A stretch of 64,000 bases of DNA from Prillingera fragicola. Taxonomy: Eukaryota; Basidiomycota; Tremellomycetes; Trichosporonales; Trichosporonaceae. Positions within the stretch are counted from its first letter, which is position 1; each line of letters begins with the position of its first letter. A program made the position numbers and the translations under genes. This document shows, in pieces, positions 19,242 through 61,684 of the stretch. Location of the stretch: assembly GCA_002335605.1 (NCBI GenBank), contig BEDY01000002.1, forward strand, positions 2,418,001-2,482,000, given 5' to 3'. The notes under the pieces are model-generated. The model saw only the letters and a list, made by a program, of their open reading frames with translations, did no database searches and was not told the origin of the DNA.

Positions 19242-20032
19242 ATGCTCTTCACCACCCTCGCTATTGCCGCTTCGGCCTCGCTGGCTGGAGCCTCTGTCGT
19301 TGAGCGTCGCGCTGAGATGTCGGTGAGTCTTGCCTGGGTTTCTCTGGTCATCGCTGACACGCGATCTAGTCGTTCACCTCGGCCCCCGTCTCGTTTGCTT
19401 TCCCCGCTGCCCGTGCCGGCACCTTTGCGGTCGACACCCAGGACGACGCCCCTTGCAATGGATACGCTCTCGGTGCCCGTACCGACTACCCCCTTAGCGG
19501 CGGTGACCTCGCGCTCTCGTCGCAGACGACCGTGACCGACGTCCAGTTCTTCTACTCCAACTCGTCCGACCCCAAAAAGTTCCACAACGTCTTCCGCTCG
19601 TACGGCGCCACGGCCGTCAACAAGCTCGGCGCAGGCCACTTCTGCGCCAAGGCTCCCGACTTTGCCGCCGCCGGCCTCAAGGCCGGTGACCCCGCCACCG
19701 TGCTCGTCATCTACCAGCTCGAGGGCCGCAACGAGTACAACTACCACTGCGCCGACGTCAACCTCGTCGACGCGGCCGGCTTCAAGGCCTCCACCGAGTA
19801 CGTCTGCGGCAACTACACCTCAATCCTCCAGGAGGGCAACGAGGCCGGCGTCGCCGCAGCTCACCCCTCGGGCACCACGGGTGGCTTCATCACCGGCGCC
19901 GAGAGCACTGCCGCACCAGCCGCTTCCTCGGGTGCCTCCACTGCTGGCGCCTCCAGCGGTGCTGGGGCCATGGCCGTCCCCGTCCTCGGCCTTGCCGCCG
20001 CCGCTGCCGGTGCTGTCATGACTCTCTGGTAA
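19242..20032 (+). CDS. Secreted, GPI-anchored BIM1-like (copper acquisition factor) domain protein
   Basis: BIM1-like (X325) proteins are LPMO-derived copper-binding surface proteins; Cryptococcus Bim1 helps copper uptake. Exons 19242-19322 and 19370-20032 give 247 residues. A signal peptide (MLFTTLAIAASASLAGA) is followed by a short VVERRAEMSSFTSAP segment. The BIM1-like core has PCNGYALGARTDYPLSGGDL, then VQFFYSNSSDPKKF, KLGAGHFCAKAP and NYHCADVNLV, with the expected cysteines. A Ser/Ala/Gly-rich stretch and a hydrophobic end (VPVLGLAAAAAGAVMTL) form a GPI-attachment signal. Canonical Bim1 has a His as first mature residue for copper; no His follows the predicted signal cleavage site here, so copper binding by a His brace is doubtful. 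Confidence 0.82.
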
Positions 20033-22707: not shown

Positions 22708-24683
22708 TTAGAAGCCAAAGTTTCCACTAAGGAAGTGAACAGGTGTCTGACCCTCCCAGACCTTTTTGGCCGTGTTGACCTGACAAACGGCCCTGCGGCC
22801 ATCAATAGCCAGCGCAGTGGGGCCACAGACTGCCAAAGCCAAACCGGCGCCAACACGGGCACTTGCCGCGACGTCGTGACCAAGAATCATCTGCAGATGA
22901 CTCCTTCCGCGGTGGAACGTCATCGTGTCCGAGACCGCCATAGAGATGCCCGTGTCTTTGTGCATCATGGCGGACTTTTCCTTGTCCTTTGGTCCGGCCC
23001 CGAGGCCAAGCTCGGGGTCGTAGCTGTCACGCGAGTGGGAGGAGGACAGGCCTGATTCCGGGGACACGGCGCCAGAGTTGACGGCCGTCTCGTCGCCCGT
23101 GCCGTCTGGAGCGTTCGGGGACGTGTCCTTTTCGCTCATGACGTGGTGCTGCGAGTCGATGGGCTCGGCGGCGGCCGCGGAGCGGGTCACGTAGACGTCG
23201 ATGTGTACTTCGGTACCGCCCAGGCCCTTCTCAAAGGCGGCGTTCAGGAGGGGAGCGATCCAGGACACGTCAGAGTGGTGGCGCACGTTCCAGACGAGAT
23301 GGGCCCGCGACACGGCAGTCTGCCCTGCGCGGGCCGACTGTAGGATGGAGAGCAGGTGCGAGAGGGCGTAGGTGATGCCTGTACCTCCGGCAACGAGAAC
23401 GACAGTGTCAAAGTGGTTGAGACTCTCGATGGCACCGTAGGGACCCTCAAAGTGGGCGCGGAGAGTGGTCTCGGTCTGGTTGGCCAGGCGGCGTGTAAAG
23501 CCCGAGTGAGCGCGGATGATGAGCACTGCGTCGCCGGTGCCATCGGGCATGTTGGCAATGGTGAAGGGGTGCTGCTCATAGGGAAGCTGGGCAACACCTG
23601 GCATGACAATGTAGCAGTGCTGGCCACCGGTCCACTTGAGCATGGGACGGTGGAAGGTGAGGCGGACGACGTCGTGGCACAGCTGCTCGACTGTGGCGGT
23701 CTGGTCGGGGTTGGTTTTGCGCTTGGAGAGGACAGTCCACCACTTATTGATGATGAGCATGCGCGCGAGACCCACAAAGCGGTCAAGACCCCAGAGGAAA
23801 AGGCAGGGCCAGATCCAAAAGTTGAGCTTGGGCCAGTGAAAGTAACAGCCGACAATGAACATGAGACCAAAAGCGATGTGGCAGATGATGAAAAACTCGT
23901 AGAACGCAGAGCGGACGATGCGGAACGAGGTCATGATCATCATAAAGAGCCCAATTCAGGCAATCATGCCGGTGGTAAAGTTCCATGATCCAACGCCGTG
24001 CTTGCCAAGACCGGTCCTGCACCAGCCAAAGATGTGAAGCATCGCGGTGAGGACACAGACACGGCCAGCCGCCCGGTGGAGAAAGTTTAGCTTTTCGTAC
24101 GAGATGCCGGTAAGCATTGAGAGGACGTTGTTGCGCGAGGCCAGGCCAACTATAAGAGGCATCTGAGCAAACGAGACCTGCACATGTCAACAGTGTCGCG
24201 GACGGATGGACTTACCATGCCCATGACGTTGTTAAAGTCCATCTTGCCCTGGAAGATTGACGCGTGGAATCCGACACCAAGAGTGATGCCAAGGTAGATG
24301 ATGCACCAGACCCATTCGGCTGGAGTGCTCTTGGCGTAGATTGACAACGGAATCACGGAGACGTAGGCCATGTTCGAGTAGCCAGTCGAGACGGCCGAGC
24401 AGAAGCGGCTGATGGCCGAGGCCGTTTTGGTGGAGGTTGTCCCAGCCTTGCGAGCAGCAATGGCCCGGCGCTTGACGATCAAGGCCTTGGTGAGGCGGTA
24501 GGCGTATGCGACCATCAAGCCGAACATGACACCAGTAATCACGTACCAGAGGTAGGTCATACCAGTGTTGCGAACAGCGGCACGAGCGGCCTTGTCGACC
24601 TTGGGTGTTGCGGAACCACCCTTGGCATCACCCTTGGCGTCACCGTGACCGCCGCCGCCCTCTGCGCGGATAAAGTTGGACAT
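22708..24683 (-). pseudogene. Ferric reductase-like transmembrane protein, interrupted by in-frame TGA
   Basis: FRE-type reductases pass electrons from NADPH via FAD and two hemes across the plasma membrane to reduce Fe(III)/Cu(II). Exons 24216-24683 and 22708-24177 (38-nt intron) would give 645 codons, but codon 230 is TGA (23956-23958), inside a membrane helix just after TTGMIA. Downstream the same frame is intact and well conserved. Heme-ligand His pairs are visible with 13-residue spacing in FLHRAAGRVCVLTAMLHIF and CHIAFGLMFIVGCYFHW. The FAD motif is HPFTIANMP, the nucleotide motif GGTGIT, and VCGPTAL follows near the end. I found no GT-AG intron that removes the TGA. It could be a recent nonsense mutation, a sequencing error or readthrough; I label it a pseudogene with reserve. 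Confidence 0.8.
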
Positions 24684-44578: not shown

Positions 44579-46130
44579 TTAGGCCGAGCAGCTGAAGGGC
44601 TTGCCGACCTTGCCCGAGTCGAAAGTACGCTTCATGTCCAGCACGGAGCCGTACGTTCCGGCGACAAAGATGAGGAAGCCGATGAGGATGACGATAATGT
44701 TGATAATGCTGAGGATGGCGTTCTTCTTTGTGCTAAACATGCCGCCCTCCTTGATGACTGCAAACCAGAGAATGCCGGGGAGGTAGAGGGAGAATGCCGA
44801 GTTGAAGAGCGAGCTGATAATGCCGAGCAGGGGGTTGAAGATGGGAATGACACTGGCAATAATCCAGCCGGCAAAGCACACGCCAAAGACGAGGGCGACC
44901 CAGGTCGCCCAGCCGCGCGGCGTGTTGACGTACCGCACAGTGCTGTTGGTAAAGTACGTGTCCATGACGAAACGGCCTGCGGTGACTGCGCAGATGGCTC
45001 CGGAAATGAAAATGACGGGCAAGGCCACGCCAAAGGCCACGCGCGAGACGGTGACGCTGGCGGACAGGAGGGCGGGGGCCTTGACGTCGGGACCGATAAA
45101 GGCGTAGCCTAGCGCGCCGACGAGGGTGTAGATGATGATCTGGACGCCACCGAGTGCGACGACCGACTTGGGGAAGTCGGTCGGGGTGTGCATCTCTTCC
45201 ATGAATGAGAACTGCACAATACCAAACGAGTAGGCAAAGAGCACGTTGGTGCCTGCTAGCATGCCGTCGCCAAAGGACAGGTCGGGTGCTTTGTTGGACC
45301 AGGGAATGTTGTTGAAGCCGACCTCTTTGGCGCTAATGCCAGCGGCAATGAGGGTGATGAAGACGGCGGCCATGAGGGAGACAAAATCGAGGTAGCCGAG
45401 GAAGGCCATCTCGGCGAATGACGGGGGCAAGGCAAACGCAAAGAGGGCAAACATGGAGACCACACCCCAGACGATGCCGCAGATGCCCGACTGGGAGATG
45501 GTGCGCAGTGCAATGGTGCCGGTGAGGCAGTGGCCGCCGACAATCAGAGTCAGGAAGACGAGGAAGACGATGCGGAGAAAGGTGCGGATCCAGATACCAA
45601 TGCGAGAGTCGGGGAAGAGCAATGGGCCAATGTCCGAGTAGTGCTTGACTTGCGGGTACTTGACCTTGACCTGGCCGATGATGAAACTGCAGTAGACAGC
45701 GAGGAGACCCATGCCGATAGTGGTAATGATTCCACCAGTCATGCCGAGCATTGAAAAGACGCTGGGCAATTAGTGCGAGTTTTATCGGGGTTTTCGAGAC
45801 GACTTACACCGGCATTGACAGTGTACCAAGAGCGACGGCGGTGGTAATCAAGACGACAGTGAGCTGCTTCCAGCCAAGCTTGTGGAACTTGGCTTCTCCG
45901 GCCTCAGTAACGTCTGAAAAGTATTGAGCCTTCTCTGCGTCCGACATGTTGGCAGTAGGGTGCAAGCTGGGGCGACGGCCGGCAAACGAGGACCGGCGCC
46001 GGTCCGGGTTGTGGTGGGCGCCATTGACTTCGAGAATCTTGTAAACCGTGTCGTCCTTGGACATGGGCGTGTCCTCGGCATTGAAGACGTGAGTGGAATC
46101 ATCAAACTTCTCCACAGAAGAGGACTTCAT
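44579..46130 (-). CDS. Amino acid permease, AAAP family (Mtr-like)
   Basis: AAAP transporters are proton-coupled neutral amino-acid carriers at the plasma or vacuolar membrane; the fungal Mtr group takes up neutral and aromatic amino acids. Exons 45808-46130 and 44579-45761 give 501 residues. An N-terminal cytosolic domain of about 85 residues, rich in Ser and charged residues, leads to KLGWKQLTVVLITTAVALGTLSMP, the typical first helix with its unwound centre. About eleven membrane segments follow, with family signatures GHCLTGTIALR, LAGTNVLFAYSFGIVQFSFMEEM and GALGYAFIGPDVKAPALLSA. The C-terminus is short (DSGKVGKPFSCSA). The 46-nt intron falls within the first helix. Substrate is inferred. 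Confidence 0.9.
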
Positions 46131-55242: not shown

Positions 55243-56874
55243 CTACTCGCGAGCAACGAACCGCAACTGGGCATTCCTAGGCGCCAACAAGCCCCCCGGC
55301 GTCAACTCACTCCCCACCTCACTCCCCACACTAATCTCAAACGCCTCGAGCAGCGCACGCGTACACATGTGCAAGGAGCGCATGGCAATAGGCTGGCCGG
55401 GACAGGCGCGCGCTCCGCCGTGGAAGGTGACAAACTCGCCGCTGCTGCGGGCTTTGCGCGCCAGGCTGTCAATGTCCTCGACGGTGGCTCCCCAGCGGGT
55501 GGGGCGGAAGGCTTCGGGGTCGGGCGACCAGGTCGGCGCGTAGGTGGAGCGGTGCAGGCCGAAGGCTGTCCAGCCCACGTAGGTGCCGGTGCGGAGGGGG
55601 ACGTCGAGGGTGGTGCTGCCGTCTAGGGAGGGGAGGGAGAGGACGGTAGGAGTGGCGACGCAGCGGTTGAAGAGCTGAGGGATGGGGGGGAGGAGGCGCA
55701 GGGTCTCGTGCAGCGTCGCGTGGAGGAGCGGGCCGGGTGTGGGGTCGTCGGCCAGGGAGAGGGATTCGGCGCGGATAGACTGTTGGAGCTCTGGGTCGCG
55801 TGCGAGTACGAGAAGGAGAGAGCAGAGTGCCTGCTGGGCATTTTCGTGGCCCGCGATGAAGAGGACTGCTGTTAGCTTGAAAAAGGCAAAGAGACTCACT
55901 CTTCAAGTTGTCAATGTACTCCCTGCGCGTCCACTTGCCGGCAATCAAAGCCTCGTCGAGACTGCGCAGCACATTGTACGAGTCGAGATCGCCACCCTTC
56001 TCTGCCTCGCCAGGCGGGGTCGCCGCTTCCTTTTCTGTCCGCTCAGCCCGTCCAAGCGCACGCTTCGCAGCCTGACTCGGCAAGACCGTCAGCAGCTCGT
56101 CCTCAATCTTGTCGATCATGGTCCCAGCCACGACGCGCGACGGGAACAAACGTGGAAACGAGTCTAGCGCAGGAAAGGAGAGAAAGAGCGGGTGGAAGAT
56201 ATGCTTCTTGACCAGCGCATGCACGGCGTGAATCTGAGGAGCTGGATCGGACAGAAACTGGAGATCACGCCCGAGGACGGCCAGGCAGACTGATTCCATC
56301 GAGTATCGCTGCGCGAGAGCCGTGATGCCCATGGGCGCGCCGGCGGTGTTGCGGAGCTGCTGCACCAGCCGCGCGCATGAGGTCTTGAGCGCGTCAAAGT
56401 CGACCTGGGCTTTGAGGGCCGGACGGACTACCTCGGCGTACCGGCGCCAGACCTGCAAGGTCAGCTTGTGCTCGCTTGGATGGCACTCACGTCGCCCGTC
56501 TCGCTGATGACGTTTCCGCCAGTCAACCTGCTGATGACCGCATGGGGGATCTTCTTGTGGTTTCCAGACTTTTGGTAGACCTCCTTTTCCTTTGCAAACA
56601 GCTGCTTCATGGCGGCAGGATGGGCGACGAGGACGTTCCAGCGCTGGCCAAAGAAGATGACCACTGCGCCGTGCTTGCGCATCGCCGGCTCAATGTATTT
56701 GGCATACGTCTCGTCTTGGCCCGGCAGCGGGAGGCCGAGCCTTGATCGCGCGAGGGGCAGAAGCGCTACCCAGAGTGGGATCACTGGCAAGCCCGGTGCG
56801 AACCCCCTTGGCGGGTGGGTGAGGCGCCATAGTCCTGCGAACACGACAGCGAGGGCGACGAGCAGGTAGAGCAT
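55243..56874 (-). CDS. Cytochrome P450, Dit2/CYP56-like
   Basis: Dit2-type P450s oxidatively join N-formyl-tyrosine units to bis-formyl-dityrosine in yeast spores. Exons 56491-56874, 55900-56452 and 55243-55868 give 520 residues; the second intron is only 31 nt. An N-terminal membrane anchor (MLYLLVALAVVFAGLW) and a Pro-rich hinge are followed by the I-helix motif FIAGHENAQQA, the K-helix ETLRLLPP (ExxR) and the heme-binding loop FHGGARACPGQ with the Cys ligand. All P450 hallmarks are intact and length is normal. It is the last of three minus-strand genes with the DyP peroxidase (434 bp upstream) and the Dit1-type synthase, and that neighbourhood is the main reason to favour a Dit2-like role over other P450 families. 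Confidence 0.85.
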
Positions 56875-57308
56875 GTTAGCGTTGTGTGAGTGGGTGATCC
56901 AAAGAAACTCTGATCCATATACTCTAGTCTAGAGCAGTGTTCTTGGCGGACAGAATGTAGTGGGCTGTCGTTGACCGGAGACATGAGGCTCGGAGACATG
57001 TACCTGAGCGTGTGCTGTGGTGGGACACTGACTGCTGTGTCGTTGCGGTGCGAGTTCCGCGTTCCCCCTGGGAGCTGGACAGGCTGGACAGGATTCCGAT
57101 CCTGGCTGTGATAGTGTCTCGACCGATAGGCAACAGGGATGCTATGCGTTGCAGACATTAGGGAGAGCCCAAGAGAATGCTATTGCTGATCATCCTCGGC
57201 TGATATCAGGACTGACCTGGAGATACCCGCAAACATCTATATCCGGATGTCCTCCACCCCATAGGTTCACAGCGAGCACCTTCAATACACCCAACCCTAT
57301 GCATACAT
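56875..57308. other. Intergenic, P450 promoter
   Basis: A 434-bp gap between the tandem DyP and P450 genes. No coding sequence is seen. It should carry the P450 promoter and the DyP 3' end. Confidence 0.4.
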
Positions 57309-58412
57309 CTAGTCGCCCAAGCTGTCCAGGTCATCCGCACAGGGTACAAAGAACGTACACCCAGTCACAGCCTTACTAAAGTCAAGCAGTCGATCATGCT
57401 TGCCCGCTGGCTCACCGACAAACATCCTCTCGAGCATCTTCTCCGTCACCCACAGCTTGCGGCTGTATCCGATGAAATAGGTGCCATACTCGTTTGAAGC
57501 AGGCGACCCAAATGGCATGTTATCGCGCAGAATATCGTGCTCGTTCCCCTCGCTGTCGGTAACGGTCGTGAGCTGCTTGTGGGGCTTTTGGGCCTCGGGC
57601 GGCTGATCCGGCGTCTCGACGTTGTCCAGCTTTGTCCGCCCAATGATGGCCTCTTGCTGCTCTGTCTTGAGCCCCTTCCACCCCTTCATGTCGTGCAGGT
57701 ACTTTTGGATAACGACATAGCTACCTCCAACCCCGTGCTCGCCGTCGCTGGCCGTCAGCAGCGCGGCCTCCGGCACGCTCGCGCCGACCGGATTCGCCGT
57801 CCCGTCCACGAACCCGAGCAGGTCGCGCGCGTCAAAGTATCGGAACCCCGATACATGGTCCTCGACCTTGACGGCGTCGCCGAGCAAGAGCATGAGCTGG
57901 TGCTCAAACTCAAAGATCAAGTCTTTGCGGTCGGCGCGGATGTGGAACAGCAGATCGCCGGGCGTGCGCAGGGCAGAGTGCTTGTCGCCCTTGAACTCTT
58001 TAAAGGGTCGCAACTCGCTTGGCCGTGGCAGGCTCGTGACGTCGTCCCAGACCTCAGACCCGATGCCGACCGTCACTGAAAAGCCGCCCGCGGGGGCGCG
58101 GATGACAATGTTTTTCGCCATGTCCGAGATCCCGCCGAGCGTGTCCTTGACCGTCGAGGCCGCGTTGGGGGCGGATGTTAGAGAGAGGACGAGGAAGGTT
58201 GCCTGTTGCGTCAACCCGCCGGTGATGGCTTGGACGGCCGACATGGTGCGTTTGTGAGTGGGCGTTTTGAGGGTTGGAGTCGGGCGATGGAGAGGGGTTC
58301 CCAGGGGAGCGGTTGAGAGGTAGCGAGGACGGAGAGAGAGGGCAGGTGTAAGGCGACGAGCGACGAGGGGTGTGATAGACTTTGCGATGTGTGTACGGGC
58401 CGTGGTGAGCAT
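57309..58412 (-). CDS. DyP-type heme peroxidase (YfeX-like), possible mitochondrial presequence
   Basis: DyP peroxidases use hydrogen peroxide and heme to oxidise phenols, dyes and porphyrins. This single-exon gene codes 367 residues. Residues 1-56 are Arg/Ser/Thr-rich with no acid residues, like a mitochondrial presequence; Met57 would give a 311-residue form, close to bacterial class B YfeX enzymes. The signature GFVDGTANP is at about 200-208, with the catalytic Asp near 203. GGSYVVIQKYLHDMKGW and the EHDILRDNMPFG block (a candidate proximal-His/Arg region) follow, then YGTYFIGYSRKLWVTEKMLERMF. This differs from the larger secreted DyPs common in basidiomycetes. Its place between a Dit1-type synthase and a Dit2-like P450 suggests oxidative phenol coupling, by inference only. 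Confidence 0.9.
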   Translation of the reverse strand: MLTTARTHIAKSITPLVARRLTPALSLRPRYLSTAPLGTPLHRPTPTLKTPTHKRTMSAVQAITGGLTQQATFLVLSLTSAPNAASTVKDTLGGISDMAKNIVIRAPAGGFSVTVGIGSEVWDDVTSLPRPSELRPFKEFKGDKHSALRTPGDLLFHIRADRKDLIFEFEHQLMLLLGDAVKVEDHVSGFRYFDARDLLGFVDGTANPVGASVPEAALLTASDGEHGVGGSYVVIQKYLHDMKGWKGLKTEQQEAIIGRTKLDNVETPDQPPEAQKPHKQLTTVTDSEGNEHDILRDNMPFGSPASNEYGTYFIGYSRKLWVTEKMLERMFVGEPAGKHDRLLDFSKAVTGCTFFVPCADDLDSLGD

Positions 58413-58765
58413 GAGTACGCTTGGGCGATGAAGAGTGTGGAAGAGTGTGGGTTCTCTTTATCAGTGTCTTAAAGGTTGTCGTATGCTCATGTCAGCCAGT
58501 TGTATGGTGTCGTTCATGACATCATCCTATTCAATAACAGTGGTTTTTAGCAGCAACACACCGGAAAGTCTATTCTCCGTCTCGGACAGCTGCCAATCAT
58601 GTCGAGCTCATTTGCTCTCTGCCAGTTTCATGTCTCATCTCCGCACTCTCGTAACCGTCTCACTACTGCAGCTCGGCCAATGCAGCATGCAAATCCATCA
58701 TCCCAATTTACAATTGTCCAGGTACGTGGGGTATACTAGCAAACATCTCCTCGGCTCGGCAGCGC
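58413..58765. other. Intergenic, DyP promoter
   Basis: A 353-bp gap between the tandem DIT1-type and DyP genes. No coding sequence or clear TATA element is seen. Confidence 0.4.
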
Positions 58766-60172
58766 CTAAGCCTCCTCTGGCTCGTCCGACGCAGGCTCCT
58801 CTGTGAGGACCGGAGCCGCGGCGCCACCCTTCTTGACAAGCTTGAAATAAGCGCCCTCGCCAATCTTGTCGACGTTGAAAAACTCGACAGTGTGCTCGTC
58901 GTCCTCAAAGTCTTTGAGCGCACTCTTCTTGCACACGTGGTAGCCGCCGTCGAGCATCTCGAGCACGACATTGTGCCACGGTGTAGGGATGTGGAACAGG
59001 TCGGCGGCAGCGACGGGACCCGAGCTGTTGCCGTGGCGGAAGCTGGGGTGCAGCAAGGTGACGGCAAACTTGGGGCCGGCATTGTTGTGCGGGTGGATGG
59101 ACAGACGGACGGCCTGCGGGAACGACACCTCGACGAGGTTCGAGTAGGCCTCGTTACGGAGGATCATGAGCTTGGCCGTCTCCCAGGCAATCTTCTTGCG
59201 CTTGCTCTGGCTCAGGTTGGCAAGCGTCGGGTGCGTCAGAGTGTCCTCCATCACAAACTTGGAGAATCCACGGGCGAGGCCCATGAGTGCGTCGTCAGAC
59301 TTGAGGCGCAGGGCGAGCTCCTCGGGGTCACCGCCGAAACGGAGCAGGAGCGCCTTGCGGGCCTGGTCTGCCTCGTGGGTCTGGAAAGTCTCGAGCGGCG
59401 CCGCAGTGTACTTGTCCCATGACCAGCCCCAGCCGCCGGCAGGGGTGGTGGGGACGGCCTTCTTGAGCAAGGCGTCGAGGCCAGTGAACGAAAAGACCTT
59501 GCGGGCCGGGTCGAGCGCAAACACCATGCGAAGGAGGGCAGCGTTGTACTCGTCGACAATGTTGTCGTCGGTGCCCACCAGGTCGGAGAAGACGTGTCCA
59601 TCGGAAACGACGAGCATCCGCGCGCCGGGCGAGTAGACGCGCTTGATGGCGTCGCTGTACTTGGACAAGGTGCGCATGGCGAGCTCCTCGCCCTTATCCG
59701 GGAGGTGGCCCGCGACCTTGTTCAGGTTGGACGACTTGCAGGGGAACGCCGGGAGGACAAAGTCGACCGGCTTGCCCTTGACCACAAACGGCCGGACTTT
59801 GGCCGCAAACGACTCGCGGCCGCCCTTGGTCCAAAAGTCTCCAGTGGGGCAGACGTGATACACGTGCTGCTCGTGCTGCTGGACAATCTTGTCGACAATC
59901 TCGTCAATAATGCCCGACTGAGGGCCCGCGGCGCCAAACTTGGTGTTGACAGACGCAGTCATCGGGCCCTTGGTGCGCTGGAACGAGTCGATGAGCGTGT
60001 CGACGTCAATTGTCGCCGAGCGCTGGGGAGCGCGGACCTCGTGGCCCAGCTTGCTGCGGAGGGGCACGGCGCTGTCGGGCTTGCTGCTTGGGAGCAGCTT
60101 GGAGTTATCCGGGACAGTCTCGAGAATGGTCACACGGGGCTTGCTGGGCCTAGGCTTGGTTGCGACAGTCAT
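58766..60172 (-). CDS. DIT1: Isocyanide synthase, Dit1/PvcA family
   Basis: Enzymes of this family turn an amino acid, typically Tyr or Trp, into an isocyanide using ribulose-5-phosphate (PvcA, IsnA, XanB); yeast Dit1 makes the formyl-tyrosine precursor of spore-wall dityrosine. This single-exon gene codes 468 residues. The core starts near residue 85 (GIIDEIVDKIVQQHEQ) and carries the hallmark FVLPAFPCKSSNLNKVAGHLP at about 138-158, then GEELAMRTLSKY, RMLVVSDGHVFSDL, and further on AYSNLVEVSFPQAVRLSIHP followed by GPKFAVTLLHP. It lacks the TauD-like dioxygenase domain found in some longer fungal members. A variable N-terminal 80 residues and an acidic tail are typical additions. A TATA-type element lies 157 bp upstream. 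Substrate cannot be read from sequence alone. Confidence 0.93.
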   Translation of the reverse strand: MTVATKPRPSKPRVTILETVPDNSKLLPSSKPDSAVPLRSKLGHEVRAPQRSATIDVDTLIDSFQRTKGPMTASVNTKFGAAGPQSGIIDEIVDKIVQQHEQHVYHVCPTGDFWTKGGRESFAAKVRPFVVKGKPVDFVLPAFPCKSSNLNKVAGHLPDKGEELAMRTLSKYSDAIKRVYSPGARMLVVSDGHVFSDLVGTDDNIVDEYNAALLRMVFALDPARKVFSFTGLDALLKKAVPTTPAGGWGWSWDKYTAAPLETFQTHEADQARKALLLRFGGDPEELALRLKSDDALMGLARGFSKFVMEDTLTHPTLANLSQSKRKKIAWETAKLMILRNEAYSNLVEVSFPQAVRLSIHPHNNAGPKFAVTLLHPSFRHGNSSGPVAAADLFHIPTPWHNVVLEMLDGGYHVCKKSALKDFEDDEHTVEFFNVDKIGEGAYFKLVKKGGAAAPVLTEEPASDEPEEA

Positions 60173-60347: not shown

Positions 60348-61684
60348 CTGACTCTGTACTGGCACCTCGGCGACTTGATTGCAGCCACAATGCTGGGCTG
60401 GAGTGAGCAGTGACACCCCACGCGGGGCGGAGACTATTGAGCCTGGATCAATGCACGGCAACAGCGCCAAGCCTTTGCAGTACTATCCTGTGTGAACAGC
60501 ATGCTGCACAAATAAGTGTATGAGAGTGTGCGTTGTCAAGTGTCTAGGGTGGGAAGACGGCAGCGAAACCCAGGTCCCAGTCAGTTTACGGATCCATGAC
60601 ATGAGACGCACGGGGCGAGCTGCAGTGCAATCCCGCCGAGCAGTGTCGGACACTTTAACTCTGCCCCGTGGTCACTGTTCCTCCTGGCCGACAGCCTACA
60701 TGCACTGGAGCCGTAGGCTCGCTTATGTCTGGACTGGGGCTGGGTCTGGCTGACGGGTGAGACGGGGGCGATGTTGTGGGCAAAAAGGGAGGAGGAGACA
60801 ATGGGCACACAAGCTTCCTTGCTTTCCGGGTCCCCAGCCACTTGCTTCGGCTTTCCGCTGCACTGCACCCAGGTTCCCCCGCACTTTTGCAACGCTGCCC
60901 CTCCTAGGATCACTCAAGGATGAGGATGGACGGGGCTTGGGCAGTGCAATGCATGTACGCACGCCTGTCTGTCGGCCGTCGGACTCGGACATCGCCATCA
61001 ATGCGGCCTGCTCAGGAGGGCCGCGGCCAACTGATCGAGTGCGTTGAGGGCAACTAACTTGCCGAGTGCCAAGATTAACGGCGCAAAACACCGAGCCTGT
61101 GTTGAACAGCAGACAGGACATGTTTGGGATGCCTCTATCTTTCCTCGTACTCTCTGACATTGCTTGCAGCGCTTCAAGATTTCAGCAGCCGTTGACAGCG
61201 CCCACTGTGACGTTACCAGCGAGGACGCGCCACTGATCGGCAAGCACAGCGCTACAGGTGATCCAAAACGAGCGAGACCCATCGTGTGTGTGATTCGAGC
61301 AGCCAGTGTGCATGCATATCGGAAGGTCTACCTCCAGCTGGCGAGGAGGGAAACTAATTCTTACGCATGGGTGGGGACGAACGACAACTTCGTACCGTCC
61401 ATCGCAGACGACCAGCGTCTATGACCAACACTCAAGCTAACCGCCCTCGCCGTATCACAACCAAACCCATCTGGAACACGAAACTGTGTGACTTATCTGG
61501 AGACAGCTGATAGCATTCATACATCATTGAGACTATGTGCATGCATAGGCAACCCGGCGAGGAAGACACCCACCTGCACACGTCAACTGCCACAGCTGCG
61601 CCCCCCCTCCACTGGCCACTCACCTCAACAAGATCAACACACTCACCCCTCCCTCTTCCACATCCATCCATTCACTCTCCCATC
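60348..61684. other. Intergenic, divergent promoters
   Basis: Lies between the divergent DIT1-type and F-box-like genes. No coding sequence is supported. A C-rich CACTCACCCCTCCCTC-type tract precedes the F-box-like ATG. Confidence 0.4.

Follow-up and report, generated by a model that had tools for sequence, protein, structure and literature searches.

Is the dit pathway confined to ascomycetes, and could a peroxidase be one of its enzymes? Both questions are raised by three minus-strand genes packed into 4.9 kb of the basidiomycete yeast Prillingera fragicola, within the 64,000-nucleotide stretch of contig BEDY01000002.1 (positions 2,418,001 to 2,482,000) that was analysed here and is called the window below. 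A preliminary description had read these genes as encoding a Dit1/PvcA-type isocyanide synthase, a DyP-type (dye-decolorizing) peroxidase and a Dit2-like cytochrome P450, and had proposed that they form a cluster. All three genes were found intact and in place (Table 1), and each family call was borne out: the synthase by PF05141 (260 bits versus a cut-off of 26) and the LPAFPCKSSNLNKVAG motif, the peroxidase by both DyP Pfam domains and by 3qnr as its best PDB match, and the P450 by PF00067 (133 bits) together with FIAGHEN, ETLR and FHGGARACPGQ; chance is no issue for these assignments. We consider it likely, with a probability of roughly 0.7, that the locus represents a dit1/dit2 pair of a basidiomycete, its two genes being separated by that of an unrelated housekeeping peroxidase.

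The synthase and the P450

The synthase is encoded by a single open frame, in which PF05141 is the sole Pfam domain, with neither a dioxygenase nor a nonribosomal peptide synthetase part, and hydropathy analysis revealed no hydrophobic stretch at its N-terminus. It thus has the single isocyanide synthase (ICS) domain expected of a dit superfamily member (PMC10153163), although this trait is not exclusive to Dit1, the IcsA of Aspergillus fumigatus being likewise single-domain (PMC5974471). It shares the 46 columns that are invariant across 19 aligned Dit1-type proteins, itself included. Its closest named relative among the best 120 of 665 matches is the protein of Vanrija albida (54% identity over 58% of the length), and among solved structures it matches the bacterial PvcA/IsnA-type isonitrile synthases (9dhm/9dh4, E 1.2e-28; 3e59, E 9.2e-25). 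A profile search of the whole genome (20.2 Mb in 17 contigs) returned one PF05141 match, namely this gene. As a side observation, the Dit1 models of V. albida and related environmental contigs (P0002-P0006) stop at RLSIHP, with one extending nine residues further; judging from the alignment, this stop probably marks an intron absent from the window synthase, and the protein on record for V. albida was likely cut short there.

Once its two introns are removed, the P450 frame encodes 519 residues, a splice model backed by three collinear protein matches of Vanrija pseudolonga at 56-67% identity. Overall it is 62% identical to the V. pseudolonga 'Cytochrome P450-DIT2', and when that protein was searched against the genome, this P450 was recovered at 278, 180 and 168 bits (three exons) with nothing else above 33 bits, even though P450 matches were found in 22 stretches at 17 places by grouping, the window P450 counted. 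The top three homologues, from two Vanrija species and Tilletia, all carry the name DIT2, showing that automatic annotation had already caught this P450. By its sequence, the window P450 is a Dit2 orthologue. The I-helix Asn of AG[HQ]EN is retained in 13 of 14 homologues, the fourteenth being a fragment, and when a crude pattern was run on 16 other P450 stretches of the genome, seven showed a heme motif and one a candidate I-helix. Hydroxylating P450s usually carry a Thr at the position held by this Asn, and an enzyme that couples its substrates could well do without that Thr. The P450 is hydrophobic at its N-terminus, where 19 residues have a mean Kyte-Doolittle value of 1.98.

Phylogenetic trees of the synthase were built from 54 (broader tree), 32 (bacteria-rooted tree) and 23 (constraint test) of the 120 matches listed, and the P450 tree from 19 of 34, leaving out the fragment P0130; as bacterial outgroup, 11 sequences were picked by name, of which two were dropped (frames >430 residues) and nine used. 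In the bacteria-rooted tree, the fungal Dit1 clade stood apart from the bacterial synthases (99/97), and comprised chytrids plus Selaginella (92/94), Basidiomycota (99/96) and Ascomycota (100/98), the last two joined at 97/91; long branches were flagged, and the deepest joins are less certain than these support values suggest. The window synthase thereby groups with the Dit1 of Saccharomycotina and others versus the bacteria, with no xan- or crm-type sequence known among the rows. Its basidiomycete clade holds Vanrija (Trichosporonales, Tremellomycetes) as well as Tilletiaria and Violaceomyces, both Ustilaginomycotina. An acetyl-CoA synthetase exon from elsewhere in the genome matched 5ifi, the Cryptococcus neoformans enzyme, at 879 bits and the remaining listed chains at 657 bits or below, and these affinities fit a basidiomycete yeast in or close to Trichosporonales. 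Forcing the window Dit1 in with 13 ascomycete rows was rejected by the approximately unbiased (AU) test (p-AU 0.0003), which speaks against a recent acquisition from an ascomycete. The Dit2 tree joined the window P450 with Vanrija at 100/99 and then, less firmly, with the basidiomycete Tilletia horrida at 86/83, placed the ascomycetes together at 98/95 and kept the chytrid apart; it left the branching order among the three groups without resolution and agreed with the Dit1 tree where resolved. Concordantly, the Dit1 and Dit2 distance matrices of six organisms correlated at r 0.76, with 3 of 720 permutations as high.

Besides the fungal sequences, four Dit1-type proteins of Selaginella moellendorffii (P0024, P0033, P0045 and P0090) grouped with the chytrids in the broader tree as well (100/98), and their placement suggests a putative fungus-to-plant transfer or a contaminant.

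The synthase and P450 genes are co-located, 1.9 kb apart with only the peroxidase gene between. For the relatives, the size of the longest contig bearing each protein match was taken as a proxy of linkage. Dit1 and Dit2 matches fell on same-sized contigs in five of the six organisms or assemblies listing both, i.e. V. albida (3,975,977 bases), an environmental contig (15,930), the chytrid Zopfochytrium (60,071), Podospora australis (77,039) and Emydomyces (9,807,209); in Ascobolus the two contigs were unequal in size. Equal size suggests one contig shared by both genes, including in V. albida, the environmental contig and the chytrid.

Compared with the DIT1/DIT2 genes of Saccharomyces cerevisiae and the ascomycete dit superfamily (PMC10153163), the window pair is alike in its single-domain synthase with all invariant residues, its Dit2 orthologue with AGHEN and a spacing below 2 kb, and unlike in its basidiomycete host and the intervening DyP gene. 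It also differs in orientation, both genes being on the minus strand, whereas dit1 and dit2 are described as divergent in S. cerevisiae and Candida albicans (PMC5974471). A survey of genomes as of September 2021 treats the dit cluster as an ascomycete one and states that none was present in any basidiomycete (PMC10153163), while isocyanide synthases were noted in four basidiomycete species (PMC5974471); in the open-licence literature searched, no title or abstract start reported a basidiomycete dit pair. The pair found here is genuine and extends the published range. A basidiomycete pair whose trees split at phylum level in the same way as the fungi themselves, together with a chytrid pair, points to a pathway that arose early in fungi and was lost many times.

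The peroxidase gene between them

The peroxidase yielded 164 and 89 bits with its two Pfam domains, and its best PDB match, 3qnr ('DyP Peroxidase'), reached 324 bits in an alignment spanning the entire catalytic part, followed by DypB chains. Its alignment retains four DypB catalytic positions, i.e. the Asp in GFVDGT, a His, and the Arg and Asn in LRDN, whose roles in catalysis we take to be those assigned to them in such enzymes. The sequence assigns it to class B, in likeness to the Rhodococcus DypB and encapsulin-associated class B DyPs, from which it differs in being eukaryotic and in having a mitochondrial-type presequence. Within its first 56 residues there are 10 Arg/Lys and no acidic residue, and the corresponding presequences of V. 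albida (10 and 0 in 49 residues) and Trichosporon asahii (10 and 1 in 66) are similarly composed. The C-terminal domain PF20628 had one match in the genome, namely this gene. In a quick tree of 47 of the best 120 of 7998 matches, it fell into a set of eight with the DyPs of T. asahii, V. albida and Vanrija humicola (Shimodaira-Hasegawa-like approximate likelihood ratio test, SH-aLRT, 91, not starred).

Where the enzyme would act bears on its membership in the pathway. Because yeast Dit1 is cytosolic and Dit2 resides in the endoplasmic reticulum (PMC7345447), a purely mitochondrial DyP would miss their product. A second in-frame ATG encodes an internal Met found at the same point in all five DyPs compared (window, V. 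albida, T. asahii, P0155 and P0156). Judged by the preceding bases, CTC for the first ATG (58412) and ACC for the second (58244), the first start context looks weak and the second strong, and in Cryptococcus such weak-then-strong pairs are predicted to yield mitochondrial and cytosolic forms (PMC7049704). The weak first start codon, by allowing a possible cytosolic form, thus keeps room for a third pathway step.

The comparison with relatives argued otherwise. The preliminary description had looked to conserved adjacency of the three genes, yet in V. albida, the one species in which this could be compared, the best DyP was assigned to a contig of 3,538,947 bases, distinct from the one bearing Dit1 and Dit2. 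Protein searches took only lengths of 0.55 to 1.75 times the query, and among the matches listed (best 120 of 665 for Dit1 and all 34 for Dit2, each drawn from a candidate set of capped size, and best 120 of 7998 for DyP) the 15,930-base contig bearing both Dit genes gave no DyP match, T. asahii and V. humicola gave a DyP and no Dit1 or Dit2, and V. pseudolonga gave a Dit2 and neither Dit1 nor DyP. In addition, no match to the window DyP or P450 at E 1e-5 was found around 80 bacterial synthase loci, with flanks of up to 6 kb a side. Thus, of the proposed cluster, the Dit1/Dit2 part is well supported as a functional pair by Dit2 orthology, a Dit1-type synthase, parallel trees and same-sized contigs in five of six cases. 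The DyP, in contrast, is probably a bystander and not a third enzyme of the pathway, a three-enzyme cluster being less likely than chance adjacency.

What the locus may encode

By homology, the cytosolic Dit1 would join the amino group of L-tyrosine with a one-carbon unit, which in the bacterial enzymes comes from ribulose-5-phosphate, giving tyrosine isocyanide or, by hydrolysis of the latter, N-formyl-tyrosine. Dit2, a P450 anchored in the membrane, would then couple two such units via their phenol rings into a dimer of the bisformyl-dityrosine type, destined for a protective wall or spore-wall polymer, and the DyP would serve the cell as its regular class B peroxidase, located for the most part in mitochondria. 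Substrates, product, localisation and use in the wall are all predicted from homologues here. Yeast vegetative cells co-expressing Dit1 and Dit2 yielded dityrosine after acid hydrolysis, and the same study favours formyl-tyrosine since PvcA failed to rescue dit1 (PMC7345447), whereas a 2026 study ascribes the tyrosine isonitrile of Phycomyces to Dit1 and describes none in Aspergillus nidulans (PMC13005658). The window synthase cannot settle the choice between isocyanide and N-formyl-tyrosine; the pair does offer a test system for that dispute outside Ascomycota, in fungi without ascospores.

Several points weigh against a dit pair with an uninvolved peroxidase. Linkage in the relatives was read from contig size alone, not from gene order or orientation, and two of the five same-sized contigs are chromosome-sized and so say little on the Dit1-Dit2 distance. 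Within Ascomycota, the Dit1 tree conflicts with the species tree, Saccharomycotina rows lying among Pezizomycotina, a conflict also reported in PMC10153163; it therefore agrees with fungal phylogeny at phylum level only. Candida dubliniensis chlamydospores are described as lacking DIT1- or DIT2-dependent dityrosine fluorescence (PMC8092133), and the product may therefore differ between fungi. As regards the peroxidase, absence from match lists is weak evidence: a fused Dit1-DyP gene model in V. pseudolonga would exceed the searched length range, and a second, divergent DyP of V. albida could lie beyond the best 120 of 7998 matches. Moreover, the layout is that expected of a small cluster, all three genes running in one direction with 353 and 434 bases between them. 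Finally, when 500 or 1000 bases above the synthase were compared with the DyP and P450 upstream stretches, the 10 seven-letter words shared by all three genes at 1000 bases exceeded the 3 to 4 of the controls, and the 8-mer CTCATGTC occurred upstream of all three (either strand; window 60598-60605, 58486-58493 and 56980-56987), being absent from 19 other 500-base upstream stretches.

The strength of this upstream signal varied with the control. At 500 bases, five seven-letter words were shared versus 1.7 expected from dinucleotide shuffles, with 11 of 300 shuffles as high; at 1000 bases, 3.3 were expected and 1 of 300 was as high. Non-overlapping non-coding triples were as high in 14 and 2 of 400 cases at 500 and 1000 bases, respectively, and triples of other upstream stretches in 81 and 26 of 1000, these being drawn from the 19 other stretches, which came from 20 genome pieces of 10 kb with genes guessed from long frames. 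One shared 8-mer was as frequent in 37 and 58 of 300 shuffles, 39 and 78 of 400 non-coding triples and 147 and 274 of 1000 upstream triples, and the shared CTCATGTC may be chance. With several tests run, the 7-mer excess is a hint, not a result.

We rate it as rather unlikely that, in place of a wall polymer, the two enzymes produce a tyrosine isocyanide or its dimer that diffuses and is metal-binding or antimicrobial in the manner of xanthocillin. Phycomyces was found to contain free tyrosine isonitrile, ascribed to its Dit1-like protein (PMC13005658), and the xanthocillin cluster includes a homologue of Dit2, XanG (PMC5974471). The A. fumigatus xan cluster (XanB, XanG) resembles the present locus in combining an isocyanide synthase domain with a Dit2-like P450. 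However, A. nidulans, which has a Dit1-like protein, gave no isonitrile signal in the same study (PMC13005658), XanB and CrmA, unlike the window synthase, carry a dioxygenase or nonribosomal peptide synthetase domain (PMC5974471), and neither a dioxygenase domain nor any further cluster gene was recognised in 22 other frames of the window, a single-frame scan that spliced genes may escape; by the same scan, the nearest recognised transporter lies ~9.5 kb off. Membership in the xan-type family was rejected on the dioxygenase ground, and the copper idea of the preliminary description belongs to the xan/crm synthases. From the bacterial PvcA/IsnA-type enzymes, the window synthase differs in its separate fungal clade and in its neighbours.

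Less probable again would be a three-gene pathway, in which Dit2 dimerises the Dit1 product and a cytosolic DyP started at the second ATG cross-links the dimers or tailors the isocyanide. The DyP gene lying exactly between Dit1 and Dit2, on the same strand and with short gaps, its retained catalytic positions, the weak-then-strong start codons and the slight surplus of shared upstream words would all fit such a pathway, but they are countered by the V. albida arrangement, by the bacterial loci and by the enzyme's standing as the genome's only DyP, grouped with those of related yeasts; nor did literature term matching find any paper joining dityrosine with isocyanide and DyP/dye-decolorizing peroxidase. 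An elaboration of it, in which an ancient fungal dit wall pathway, predating the chytrid/Dikarya split and kept in few basidiomycetes, gained in this lineage a co-regulated DyP that takes on phenol coupling in a cytosolic form, produced when leaky scanning passes over the weak start, is more doubtful still. Most improbable is that all are chance neighbours, Dit1 and Dit2 being loosely linked and without joint action here: the unequal contigs of Ascobolus and the dit genes lying apart in 11.2% of Ascomycetes (PMC10153163) would accord with it, against same-sized contigs in five of six cases, among them those of 15.9, 60 and 77 kb, and parallel Dit1 and Dit2 trees.

Features of the locus and its neighbourhood

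Table 1. Genes, introns and intergenic stretches of the dit locus, in window positions
Feature	Position	Strand	Description
Dit1-type isocyanide synthase / tyrosine N-formylating enzyme	58766..60172	-	468 residues, intronless, no hydrophobic N-terminus; PF05141, tree, hydropathy
Synthase/DyP intergenic stretch	58413..58765	-	353 bases
Class B DyP-type peroxidase	57309..58412	-	367 residues from first ATG, mitochondrial-type presequence; PF04261 and PF20628; probably neighbour, not pathway gene
Shorter DyP frame from second in-frame ATG	57309..58244	-	Context CGCACC|ATGT; without presequence
DyP/P450 intergenic stretch	56875..57308	-	434 bases
Dit2-type cytochrome P450	55243..56874	-	519 residues, N-terminal hydrophobic anchor, I-helix AGHEN, ETLR, heme Cys motif; PF00067
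P450 intron 1	56453..56490	-	38 bases, GT..AG; exon joins fit V. pseudolonga match
P450 intron 2	55866..55899	-	34 bases, GT..AG; exon joins fit V. pseudolonga match

No RNA families or tRNAs reached threshold in the window. The recognised transporter nearest to the P450 is an amino-acid transporter (PF01490, 135 bits) at window 44582-45769 on the minus strand. Further away, a BIM1-like copper acquisition factor (PF20238, 93 bits) is encoded at 19370-20029 on the plus strand and a ferric-reductase-type gene (PF08030, PF08022) at 22711-23955 on the minus strand, ~2.7 kb from it; these two genes possibly form a metal-uptake neighbourhood, ~31 to 35 kb from the Dit genes.

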